Shown: piece after piece, positions 29,035 to 33,638 of the stretch
How positions within the stretch are numbered: the first letter of the stretch is position 1
Layout: each line of letters begins with the position of its first letter
Source: Candidatus Gastranaerophilales bacterium
GTDB taxonomy: Bacteria > Cyanobacteriota > Vampirovibrionia > Gastranaerophilales > Gastranaerophilaceae
Reading direction: 5' to 3'
Assembly (NCBI GenBank): GCA_944323425.1
Contig: CALUSL010000013.1
Coordinates: 1-53,481, forward strand
DNA: 53,481 nt
Made by a program: the position numbers and the translations under genes
Notes under the pieces: generated by a model
The model's input: the letters and a program-made list of their open reading frames with translations, nothing else
The model's database searches: none
What the model was told of the DNA's origin: nothing

Positions 29035-29231
29035 TAATCTTTCGTTAAAATTTACATAATGTATTATTGTTTACTACAAAATACGAAGTCAACAATTATT
29101 AACTTATTTGACAAAGATTTCAAAAGAATAGCCCGATTGGATATTTAAAGAATTAAGAAATGTAAAAACAATTTTCAATGCATGTTCAAAAAAAATTTGC
29201 CCAAACTTCATGCAAAAAAAGGGAGCTTTGT

Positions 29232-31613
29232 ATGCAAGTTCAAAAAATTTCACTTAATCAAATACAAAAAAATCACAACTCTACTTCAAATAAAACGGAC
29301 AAACCGGTCCTCACTACTTCAAATCCCAAAAATCTTTCCCCTGTTTATGCAAATCATATTATTGGATATATGTCGGAACGGAAAAACTTAAGTTTCAAGG
29401 GATTTGATTTTGAAAAAACAGTAGACACAAACTACTTTCAGCTGCCAAAAGGGGCAAAGCCTGATATTTTTCAAAAAGCAGCAGCTGAAAATCTATATTT
29501 AGGAAACGATGTAATAGTAACAGCACCAACTGGCACAGGAAAAACTGCTATTGCGCATTATATAATTACTAAAAATCTTGAAGAGGGAAAAAAGACTTTC
29601 TACACAACTCCTTTAAAAGCATTGAGCAATGAAAAGTTCAAAGATTTTCAACGCACCTACGGAAAAAACAACGTCGGGCTACTAACCGGCGATGTAAAAA
29701 TGAATATCAATGCTCCAATTGTCCTTATGACTACCGAAATCTATAGAAATATGGTTTTCGGAGACAATTTTAAAGACAAAAATGAAATGCTTAAAAACTT
29801 AAAAACAGTTGTATTTGATGAACTTCACTATCTTGGGGATGTGGACCGAGGCGGAATCTGGGAACAATCTATTATTCTCTCAGATCCAAAAACACAGTTG
29901 CTTTCGCTTTCTGCTACAGTGGGCAACAAAAATGATGTTGCCGCCTGGATGTCAGAAGTAAGACCACAGGGAAAATTGGAAATAGTAGCTCTAAAAAATC
30001 AAAATGATAAATACAAAGCAGACTCTACTGCCCCAAAACATACAGTACTTATCGATGTTCCGCCTGAAAACAGACATGTTGAACTGGATATTGACCACAT
30101 GAGAGTAGAAGGCAAGTCTCACGAATTTACACAAATATTTTCAAACTCTATTAATAATAAAAACAACAAGCCAAAAGAACTCACAGCAAACTATAACTCT
30201 ACGCCCTCAATGGATGCTTACGTAACAACCGTACAGAAGCTGAAAAATGAAGACAAATTACCCGCAATAATATTTATATTCAGCAAAAAAGGCTGCAACG
30301 CTGTTATGAAATATCTGACAGAATTCGGTCCGGAACTCACATCCGAAGAAGACAAGAAAGAAATAGCAGCAACAATTTCCAAATACAGAAGCAAAGGCAA
30401 ATATCTTGGTGAATCGCTAAATCTCAGAGCTCTCTCCAAAGGTTATGCAATGCATAATTCAGGACTTTTGCCAACCCAAAAAGAACTTATCGAAGAATTA
30501 TTCCAGAAAAAACTTATAAAAATGGTATTCGCAACAGAAACTTTATCTGCGGGTATCAATATGCCGGCACGCACAACCATAATTACGTCTGTAAGAAAAC
30601 CATCATCCACACCCGACTCCACAGACGGAAAGCGTTTTTTGACACCGAATGAATTTCATCAGATGGCAGGACGTGCGGGCAGAAGAGGAATAGATAAAAA
30701 GGGTTATTGCTATGCGATGAGTGTTAATGATGCTCAGCAGGAAAAATTTAGCGAACTCATAAGCGCCCCTAGCAACGACCTCAAAAGTGCATTCAGACCT
30801 GATTATTCATTTATTGCCGGCTACTACGACTTTACATCGGACGATGAATACATAAAACAGCTTTTTGAAAAATCTTTCTTTGCATACAACAGTGATAAAA
30901 ATACACAAAGCGTTAATACTGAACGGCTTTTAAAGCTCTTTAACACAAGAAAAGGTATTTTGAAAAAAACGAATTTTCTAAAAACTGATAATACATTGAC
31001 CCAGAAGGGTAAAATGCTCACAAAACTAAATGGATATGAACAAATTCCCATTGTAAATGCAATTTATGATAAAACCCTTCAAAACTTTAATGCAATAGAA
31101 TTGGCTTCCATTGCCGCTGCGTTTGCCAATATAGAACCCAAAGCTACAGAACAGGAAGAAAGCAAAAAAGAACGCCAGAGTGCTGTATTTAAAAGTAAAA
31201 ATAATAAGCTGGAAAAATATATAAACGAGTTTGAAAAAACGCTTCTGGATTATAACGGTTCAATGAAAAAACTAGATAAAAAATTTAAAAAATGTGCTAT
31301 TAACAAAGATGCAATAACTCATGTCTATGAATGGGCAGAGTCAAATTCCATATACAAAGATTCACGGGAAAACTGGAACAGACTCTATTTTGGTTCTTCG
31401 AGAGACACCATAAGAGACGAAGGCTCTATGTTTAAAGAAATTACAATGACAGCTGACCTCCTGAGACAGATGTGTGAAATTGCAAAAACCGGCGAAGAAA
31501 CATCAAAATCTAAAGACGATATTTTGTATTATAAAAAACTCCAGAACACATTGAAGGAAGCTGAAAAACTAATAAGCAAAGAACCGATTATTGATCCTCT
31601 GGCAGTAAAATAA
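29232..31613 (+). CDS. Ski2-like superfamily 2 helicase with a disordered N-terminal extension
   Basis: The 793 residues start at the ATG at 29232, with GGGAG 6 bases upstream; an upstream ATG at 29178 has no such site. The first 60 residues are Asn/Ser/Lys-rich and end in NLSFKG. Motifs follow: TAPTGTGKTAIAHY (Walker A), FDELHYLGD (DExH), LSLSATVGN, FATETLSAGINMP and HQMAGRAGRRG (motif VI). A C-terminal helical region (about 520-793) resembles Ski2/Mtr4-type accessory domains. It is probably an RNA helicase in RNA decay or processing; the substrate is inferred only from the family. Confidence 0.85.
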   Translation: MQVQKISLNQIQKNHNSTSNKTDKPVLTTSNPKNLSPVYANHIIGYMSERKNLSFKGFDFEKTVDTNYFQLPKGAKPDIFQKAAAENLYLGNDVIVTAPTGTGKTAIAHYIITKNLEEGKKTFYTTPLKALSNEKFKDFQRTYGKNNVGLLTGDVKMNINAPIVLMTTEIYRNMVFGDNFKDKNEMLKNLKTVVFDELHYLGDVDRGGIWEQSIILSDPKTQLLSLSATVGNKNDVAAWMSEVRPQGKLEIVALKNQNDKYKADSTAPKHTVLIDVPPENRHVELDIDHMRVEGKSHEFTQIFSNSINNKNNKPKELTANYNSTPSMDAYVTTVQKLKNEDKLPAIIFIFSKKGCNAVMKYLTEFGPELTSEEDKKEIAATISKYRSKGKYLGESLNLRALSKGYAMHNSGLLPTQKELIEELFQKKLIKMVFATETLSAGINMPARTTIITSVRKPSSTPDSTDGKRFLTPNEFHQMAGRAGRRGIDKKGYCYAMSVNDAQQEKFSELISAPSNDLKSAFRPDYSFIAGYYDFTSDDEYIKQLFEKSFFAYNSDKNTQSVNTERLLKLFNTRKGILKKTNFLKTDNTLTQKGKMLTKLNGYEQIPIVNAIYDKTLQNFNAIELASIAAAFANIEPKATEQEESKKERQSAVFKSKNNKLEKYINEFEKTLLDYNGSMKKLDKKFKKCAINKDAITHVYEWAESNSIYKDSRENWNRLYFGSSRDTIRDEGSMFKEITMTADLLRQMCEIAKTGEETSKSKDDILYYKKLQNTLKEAEKLISKEPIIDPLAVK

Positions 31614-31656: not shown

Positions 31657-33522
31657 TTAGTTCTGACTTTTATCGTTTTCTTCTGCCTCTGCCTGTTCTT
31701 TTGCATCCACAAAAGGGGTTTCTTTGTGCATAGTAATTCTGGAAATTCTTCTGCCGTCAACCTCCAGCACTTTATATGTAATATTTTTGTCTTCAATTAC
31801 ATCATTAACTTCTGGTTCTCTTCCCAACAGCCCGAATACATATCCGCCTATTGTTTGGAAATCTTCATTTGGTATATCGAGATCAAAACGCTCATTTATA
31901 TCTTCAATATCCATTTTGCAGGAGACATTTAGTGTATTGTCGTCTATTCTCAATACTTCCGGTGAATCAACTTTGTCAAATTCATCATAAATTTCTCCGA
32001 CAATCTCTTCAAGAATATCCTCGATAGTAATAATACCTGCAATACCGCCATGTTCGTCAACAACAGCCGCTATCTGATTTTTTGATGATGTAAAATCGCT
32101 TAACAGGTCGCTTATGAACTTGTTTTCAGGTACTATGAGTATTTCTCTGGCAAGAGTCTCTATGGAAAAATTTTCATCAATATTATTGTTTTTAATAACT
32201 TTCAGTACATCTTTTGCGTTAATAACACCGATAATATTATCAACATTGTCTTTATATATCGGAATTCTTGTATGACCTGAATTTATAATCAAATCAGCAA
32301 GCGTATTAATATTTTCTTCAGAATTGATTAAAAATATTTCAGTTCTCGGCACCATAATTTCTTTTACAACAGTATTCGCAAAACTAAAGAAATTAGAAAG
32401 CATAGTAGCTTCATGTGCATCAATTGTGCCTATGTTTTTTCCTTCTGTTATAAGTTTTTCGAATTTTTCTTCCCAGTTATCCTCTGCATCATGTGCCTGA
32501 AGTTCAATAGTGATATGGTTTATATTTTTAATTCTTTTTTTCAGTTTTCTTTCCAGCATATCAGCAATATCATCAGCATCCTTCATTTGAGTTTCTGGAT
32601 CAACTTCAATCGTCATATTGATAACCAGACCTGATGAACCGAGATCCATTGTTTTTAGCTCAACAACACTGGAAATACCGTGAATATTCTCTGCTATCAT
32701 CCTGATTGTTTCTTCGACTCTGGGTTCTGCAGATTGTACGGTCAAAGAATTTACATTATGTTTTAACAAATAAATAGCAAGTATGAGAAGTATAAAACCG
32801 ATTATGATAGAGGCTATACCATCCGGTACATGTACAAGCTGGGGCGGCATGAGAAATTTAGAGATAGTAAGAGCAATAAATGCAACAATAACACCGGTTA
32901 AAGCAGCGACATCTTCATACCATACGAATCTTGTTGTCGGACTTTTAACTTTTCTGATATATTTCAAAGACTGTACAAACTGTTTGAAAATATTTTTTTC
33001 TGTTATCTGCATTTCAGCAAGAACTGCTCTTGAGGCACTTGCCACGGCCCATGATTCAAATAAAATTGTAAATATCAGAGCTATTGCCATATAGGGATAA
33101 TTGTTCAACAAATCACTGTGATCATGATTATTGAAAAATTTATCAAAACCGCTATAGAAAGCAATGAAAGTACCACCGAGCATTAATATCGATGCAAACA
33201 TTGCCCAGACATTTGCTTCCAGCCCATATCCGAATGGGTGTTCATTGTCAGCCGGTCTTGAACCTCTTTTTATTCCGACCATAAGACAAATACTGTTAAA
33301 AGAATCCACACCGGAGTGAATAGCTTCAGACAGCATAGCCGAACTGGAAGAAAATAAAAAGCAGATGAATTTAACCGCAGCAATACCGATATTCGCAATA
33401 AATGCTCTTATTACCGCACTTATTCTGGTTTTTTCATCTTCTTGTTCGTCTGTGTTTTTCTCTATTGAAACTGATATTTTTTTATTGTCTATAATTTCCG
33501 TATTACGCGTGTCTGATGACAT
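31657..33522 (-). CDS. CDF cation-efflux transporter fused to CBS-pair and CorC/HlyC domains
   Basis: The 621 residues form two recognisable halves. Residues about 35-345 are a cation diffusion facilitator with five or six membrane helices, a metal-site segment SEAIHSGVDS (H69, D73) with a second in WYEDVAALTG, and the cytoplasmic fold ending about 345. Residues about 365-600 correspond to the cytoplasmic part of CorC/HlyC/CNNM proteins: KEIMVPRTE opening a CBS pair (390-510, VVDEHGGIAGIITIEDILEE), then the CorC domain with FQTIGGYVFGLLGREP. The DUF21/CNNM membrane domain normally found with CorC is replaced by the CDF transporter. A nucleotide-gated divalent metal exporter is the natural inference. 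Confidence 0.88.
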   Translation of the reverse strand: MSSDTRNTEIIDNKKISVSIEKNTDEQEDEKTRISAVIRAFIANIGIAAVKFICFLFSSSSAMLSEAIHSGVDSFNSICLMVGIKRGSRPADNEHPFGYGLEANVWAMFASILMLGGTFIAFYSGFDKFFNNHDHSDLLNNYPYMAIALIFTILFESWAVASASRAVLAEMQITEKNIFKQFVQSLKYIRKVKSPTTRFVWYEDVAALTGVIVAFIALTISKFLMPPQLVHVPDGIASIIIGFILLILAIYLLKHNVNSLTVQSAEPRVEETIRMIAENIHGISSVVELKTMDLGSSGLVINMTIEVDPETQMKDADDIADMLERKLKKRIKNINHITIELQAHDAEDNWEEKFEKLITEGKNIGTIDAHEATMLSNFFSFANTVVKEIMVPRTEIFLINSEENINTLADLIINSGHTRIPIYKDNVDNIIGVINAKDVLKVIKNNNIDENFSIETLAREILIVPENKFISDLLSDFTSSKNQIAAVVDEHGGIAGIITIEDILEEIVGEIYDEFDKVDSPEVLRIDDNTLNVSCKMDIEDINERFDLDIPNEDFQTIGGYVFGLLGREPEVNDVIEDKNITYKVLEVDGRRISRITMHKETPFVDAKEQAEAEENDKSQN

Positions 33523-33638
33523 TTTTAACCTTTACTTTATTAACCTTATATATATAATACCTAAAGGTTAATTTATATGCAATGAATATTTTGTGTTATA
33601 CGCCAAATGACGGGTATTTTGGAATAAAAATTGTATTA

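Follow-up and report, generated by a model that had tools for sequence, protein, structure and literature searches.

Gene and domain architecture at the locus

The window, a 53,481-nucleotide stretch of contig CALUSL010000013.1 from a Candidatus Gastranaerophilales genome (2.03 Mb, 99.85% complete), carries on its minus strand an open reading frame of 621 aa (31657..33522) that combines a CDF transporter with a regulatory block of helical bundle, CBS pair and CorC domain. Pfam identifies in this protein, in order and all above the curated cut-offs, Cation_efflux (PF01545; residues 38-260, 2.6e-32, 112.7 bits versus a cut-off of 26.6), ZT_dimer (residues 269-340, 4.5e-10), two CBS domains (2.5e-14) and CorC_HlyC (residues 525-600, 1.6e-20). 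The NCBIfam CDF superfamily model TIGR01297 covers residues 37-344 (151.5 versus 82.35 bits), and the NCBIfam CorC and GldE models match residues 344-600, both below cut-off. Neither the DUF21/CNNM membrane domain (PF01595) nor the TerC membrane domain found a Pfam match in the fusion protein. These matches bear out the original prediction of a CDF exporter fused to a CBS-pair/CorC block, including the MVPRTE-type lead-in that it had placed ahead of CBS-CorC; the ZT_dimer domain between transporter and CBS block was absent from its description.

From the N-terminus, and all on the minus strand, the parts are a CDF transmembrane domain with six TM helices, as judged from Pfam and the structural model (PF01545; 32743..33417, residues 36-260); the CDF C-terminal dimer domain (ZT_dimer; 32482..32742, residues 261-347), from which the YiiP Zn-site histidines are absent; a junction and helical-bundle region that resembles the CorB acidic helical bundle and leads into the MVPR (32359..32481, residues 348-388); the CBS pair (31963..32358, residues 389-520); and the CorC_HlyC domain (31717..31962, residues 521-602). 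The fusion is a complete CDF, dimer domain included, followed by a complete CNNM/CorB-type cytoplasmic block without DUF21.

An AlphaFold2 model of the fusion has a mean pLDDT of 86.8 and a pTM of 0.58, the latter giving no reliable position for CBS-CorC with respect to the membrane. Residues 24-348 of the model align with complete YiiP and ZnT chains (for full YiiP, about residues 28-347 at Z 22-23 over ~280 residues; for 5vrf, Z 22.8 over 280 residues), with six TM helices and a cytoplasmic dimer domain of YiiP fold. MtCorB chain residues 164-326, the first of which marks the start of its helical bundle, align with model residues 348-512 (Z 16), and isolated CorC domains align with residues 521-602 at 1.3-1.4 Å (2r2z, rmsd 1.3 over 82 residues). 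Because the full YiiP chain stops and the post-DUF21 block of MtCorB starts at residues 347-349 in these alignments, we place the join there. The model has two helices in the junction and helical-bundle region, at 350-364 and 369-388, and this bundle is less acidic than that of MtCorB (7 of 34 residues versus 13 of 31).

The fusion gene stands alone, flanked by a convergent Ski2-like helicase and by an HD-domain response regulator that points away from it. The former is a bacterial Ski2/Mtr4-like helicase (DEAD + DSHCT; 29178-31613, plus strand) that ends convergently beside the fusion. Upstream of the fusion, 31 nt before its ATG, lies TTGCAT-17-TATTAT (33554..33582, minus strand), probably a housekeeping promoter; it was read by eye and was not called by a consensus promoter scan. 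A similar promoter-like sequence occurs at a similar upstream place in all seven relatives compared. A metal riboswitch upstream of the gene was considered and rejected, as no Rfam family, NiCo, M-box and similar metal riboswitches included, matched anywhere in the window at gathering thresholds. The probable promoter and the lack of an RNA element would be compatible with constitutive expression and control at the protein level.

Distribution, selection and origin of the fusion

Of the 192 genomes sampled in the order, 51 have a full-length copy of the fusion, as do 18 more from three other families of the class, and the cultured predator Vampirovibrio chlorellavorus NCIMB 11383 (L081) carries it. 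Identities range from 36 to 94%, and the join is kept down to ~36%. Within the source family, five genera have the fusion in every member sampled and the remaining genera lack it, a patchy presence that looks like loss. Among the genomes sampled, it was not found in one large-genome family and several other families of the class, nor in 156 genomes of the phylum outside the class. The order also yielded two partial copies, one a CBS-CorC half only, in a 278-aa frame (G030:C12:11911-12738), and the other a two-part match to the query that skips ~45 residues around TM5 (G028:C61:639-2333); each reflects either an assembly fault or decay.

We also scanned 84,980 species with a CDF-half profile and peptide patterns. 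The best 80 of 152 relatives gave 79 loci, 17 of them fusions, and all 17 belong to Vampirovibrionia or to cyanobacteria-group MAGs matching genomes already placed in that class. The remaining 62 relatives in this best-80 set, all from outside Vampirovibrionia, lack the CorC lead-in motif and CorC block, and most are 300-400 aa long. The patterns missed the source's own order, and fusions of differing sequence could escape a scan of this kind.

In each half, dN between the source and its nearest relatives is ~0.03, and dS is saturated or nearly so. Between sister species, the linker has a dN of 0.00-0.01 against a dS of ~1.4 and is at least as constrained as the halves. The whole fusion is thus under strong purifying selection. 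An unsupported join near residues 345-365, uniting two neighbouring genes through faulty assembly or sequencing, had been named in advance as a finding that would undo the original prediction. We consider such an artefact extremely improbable, having found nothing in its favour, and reject it together with chance adjacency: dozens of independent assemblies, long contigs included, carry the gene as a single open frame across the order and the wider class, the join persists over the identity range given above, and the linker itself is under purifying selection. The fusion is old, intact and common to a class of non-photosynthetic cyanobacterial relatives.

Phylogenetic trees of the two halves agree in grouping the fusions. 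In a tree with CNNM and CorC proteins from E. coli and from the phylum, the CorC halves form one clade (100/100). The CDF halves likewise form one clade (97/96), nested within a ZnT9-like clade (100/100), and a 100/100 split sets fusions and stand-alone ZnT9-like CDFs together apart from FieF, ZitB and the second, canonical CDF of the genome; in this tree the stand-alone ZnT9-like rows were assigned by motif, human ZnT9, the mitochondrial zinc exporter, not being among the sequences. Because each half forms a single clade, the simplest reading is that the fusion arose once, inside Vampirovibrionia, and was then inherited vertically and later lost in places, with the proviso that trees alone do not separate gain from loss.

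Metal site and likely cargo of the transporter half

The metal-site motif of TM2, H69xxxD73 (33304..33318, minus strand), is invariant in 58 of 58 homologues, as are D234 in TM6 and the two acids of the TM5 motif V200-W-Y-E203-D204 (32911..32925, minus strand), in which V200 is kept in 47 of 47 aligned homologues. We read this TM5 motif as a ZnT9-like VxxxD, a register that rests on the published ZnT9 assignment, the automatic alignment of TM5 to FieF being ambiguous by one residue. VxxxD in place of HxxxD in TM5 is the mark of the ZnT9-like cluster (PMC1868760, PMC11335279), which has been placed, with weak support, near the Mn-CDFs (Montanini et al., PMC1868760). The transporter half has HxxxD in TM2 and V/IxxxD in TM5 and groups in the tree apart from canonical CDFs, as expected of this cluster. 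With the stand-alone ZnT9/SLC30A9-like proteins of bacteria, archaea and mitochondria it has in common the CDF fold, the TM2 HxxxD, the TM5 VxxxD/ED and an HPFGYG loop; the fusions differ in adding ~270 residues of helical bundle, CBS and CorC and in forming a clade of their own.

Membership of the CDF half in the ZnT9-like cluster favours Zn2+ over Fe2+, narrowing the choice of Zn, Fe, Mn or Mg that was first put forward. The most likely cargo is Zn2+ or an ion of similar chemistry; TM5 lacks the histidine found in classical Zn-CDFs, which counts against a firm assignment, as does the weakly supported placing of the cluster near Mn-CDFs. The same missing histidine could be taken as a sign that the transporter half no longer transports and acts instead as a membrane metal sensor that signals through CBS-CorC. 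We consider this very improbable, given that the motif is shared with ZnT9, a working zinc transporter, and with stand-alone bacterial relatives, that the metal-site acids are invariant and strong selection extends over the entire CDF half, and that the locus shows no consistent linkage to a downstream signalling partner.

The dimer domain presents a different picture from that of YiiP. At the positions of YiiP H232, H248, H261, H283 and D285, the Zn-ligand set is absent in the 20 fusions compared, and in 20 of 20 the H261 position is occupied by Asp and the H283 position by Glu (dimer domain, 32482-32742). This invariant Asp and Glu could form a site for a hard ion such as Mg2+ or Mn2+. Stand-alone ZnT9-like CDFs also lack the YiiP-type dimer-domain Zn ligands, and for that reason the loss probably predates the fusion rather than being caused by it.

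The source genome has a separate canonical HxxxD CDF and its own CNNM-CBS-CorC protein, another gene that gives the sole PF01595 match in the genome, and the fusion is therefore not the sole holder of either function. Elsewhere, in three genomes of one genus (G083:C6, G066:C10, G062:C23), CNNM-CBS-CorC matches fall within reading frames of 662-670 aa, each containing one in-frame TAG and exceeding the usual length of 450 aa.

An alternative to zinc export is that the CDF has been retuned to Mg2+ or Mn2+ and serves as an exporter of Mg2+, or of divalent ions in general, whose CBS-CorC block would sense the exported ion itself in the form of Mg-ATP, in the way suggested for CNNM/CorB and MgpA. 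Characterised CBS-CorC proteins do cluster on Mg2+ and excess-cation stress (PMC12421838), the ZnT9-like CDFs are near Mn-CDFs (PMC1868760), and an invariant Asp and Glu at the H261 and H283 positions offer ligands fit for hard ions. However, the HxxxD typical of Zn-type CDFs is retained in TM2, and the DxxxD diagnostic of Mn-CDFs is missing from TM5. Zinc is also what the eukaryotic relative ZnT9 transports (PMC11335279), and the genome already has a CNNM-CBS-CorC protein for Mg2+. On balance we regard this alternative as unlikely and retain export of Zn2+ or a similar ion as the preferred reading.

The CBS-CorC half and control of export

In MtCorB, the residues that contact Mg-ATP include T207, S234, R235, T313 and D316 (PMC8242095). 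The equivalents of S234-R235, which contact the ATP phosphates, are T418-R419 (32266..32271, minus strand), with Thr or Ser at the first position in 58 of 58 homologues and Arg (54) or Lys (4) at the second. T499 and D502 (32017..32028, minus strand) correspond to the ribose contacts T313 and D316 and are both invariant in all 58, and V391, the equivalent of T207, is Val or Ile throughout the same set. The fusion has a CBS pair with Mg-ATP pocket residues, and a CorC domain, and shares with MtCorB, TpCorC and PaeA the cytoplasmic block from helical bundle to CorC. In contrast to these CNNM/CorB proteins, it carries a CDF where they have the DUF21/CNNM membrane domain, and we rejected CNNM membership on the absence of DUF21. 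The conserved pocket lends support to the possibility, raised in the original prediction, of nucleotide gating, and gating of export by the energy or Mg2+ status of the cell is plausible.

The prevailing view of CDF exporters such as YiiP is that the transported metal itself controls them via the dimer domain. We propose that the fusion is a single-chain divalent-metal exporter in which this arrangement would be altered. Its N-terminal half would act as a ZnT9-like CDF antiporter, working as a homodimer to export Zn2+ or a similar ion from the cytoplasm; its C-terminal half, a CNNM/CorB cytoplasmic block, is joined straight to the end of the CDF dimer domain. By analogy with MtCorB, Mg-ATP would bind between the CBS pairs of the two chains to give a closed disc, and closure would act through the helical bundle to bring together and order the two CDF dimer domains. 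Ordering of the dimer domain controls transport in YiiP-type CDFs and might do so here, such that the Zn-driven closure of YiiP would be replaced by Mg-ATP-driven closure and export would track cell energy or Mg2+ status. The main reason for assigning Mg-ATP the dimer-setting role of Zn is that the metal ligands of the dimer domain are missing while the nucleotide pocket is kept. We favour this reading, of a Zn-type exporter in which binding of Mg-ATP at the CBS pair sets the dimer, with modest confidence, and we infer its cargo, nucleotide binding, coupling and the sign of that coupling from sequence and the predicted structure. To our knowledge, a class-wide CDF family with these ligands missing from the dimer domain and with a CBS pair of the Mg-ATP type would be the first CDF coupled to nucleotide status.

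An alternative to the nucleotide switch is that the CBS pair and CorC mainly form an arm at which a partner protein docks and inhibits. There is precedent in E. coli YcgO/CvrA, where unphosphorylated PtsN inhibits by binding to the CorC domain (PMC11808508). We judge this decidedly unlikely for the fusion, given the strong conservation of its nucleotide-pocket residues. Moreover, a search for PTS_EIIA_2 (PtsN-type) proteins found none in the 99.85% complete source genome and was positive in 7 of 14 control genomes, and a PtsN-like partner of the YcgO kind was rejected on this basis.

Attachment of CBS-CorC to a transporter without DUF21 is already known. Salmonella MgpA/YoaE and YegH are TerC-CBS-CorC proteins, CvrA/YcgO is NHE-RCK-CorC, and CorC itself lacks a membrane domain (PMC12421838, PMC11808508). 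The premise that CorC modules normally follow DUF21 was accordingly too narrow. The fusion follows the MgpA/YoaE and YegH design, also found in E. coli, of a transporter membrane domain and then a CBS pair and CorC behind it on one chain, but its membrane part is a CDF rather than TerC, and its CBS-CorC half is only ~25% identical to YoaE. Free CorC/YbeX has the same CBS-CorC block with lead-in, at ~35% identity, but no membrane domain. CvrA/YcgO resembles the fusion in having CorC, in a regulatory role, at the end of a transporter, but has an RCK in place of the CBS pair and is a K+/H+ antiporter. The parts seen of one review of transporter regulation treat CDF and CNNM regulation separately and describe CBS domains as "plug-and-play" with no CDF example (PMC10710835). 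In the literature searched, which covered few subscription papers, we found no description of the CDF-CBS-CorC architecture, in line with the expectation that no well-characterised protein has it.

With this fusion, the CDF joins CNNM and TerC as a membrane domain served by CBS-CorC, which supports the idea of a portable regulator. Free CorC has been proposed to regulate an unidentified transporter (PMC12421838), for which CDF exporters are now a concrete candidate class. Read as a Rosetta-stone link, the fusion might imply that free CorC/YbeX acts on a CDF exporter in trans elsewhere and that Mg-ATP is a general allosteric input to CDF export, made permanent in Vampirovibrionia, where nucleotide sensing would have replaced Zn sensing by the dimer domain. 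We think it unlikely that this wider reading holds.

Gene order offers a further connection to free CorC. The E. coli gene for free CorC (corC, ybeX) adjoins ybeY and ybeZ, and in bacteria corC-type genes often lie between ybeY and era. At 13 loci from four families of the order (L061, L062, L064, L066 and L031-L039), era adjoins the fusion downstream on the same strand, mostly abutting or overlapping it. This adjacency, taken with the frequent position of corC, suggests that the fusion may occupy an ancestral corC slot; the adjacency is absent from the source's own genus, where the fusion gene stands alone. In Vampirovibrionales, flagellar export genes of the flhB/flhA type and a small ORF immediately precede the fusion and share its direction (L048, L051, L056, L068, L075, L081).
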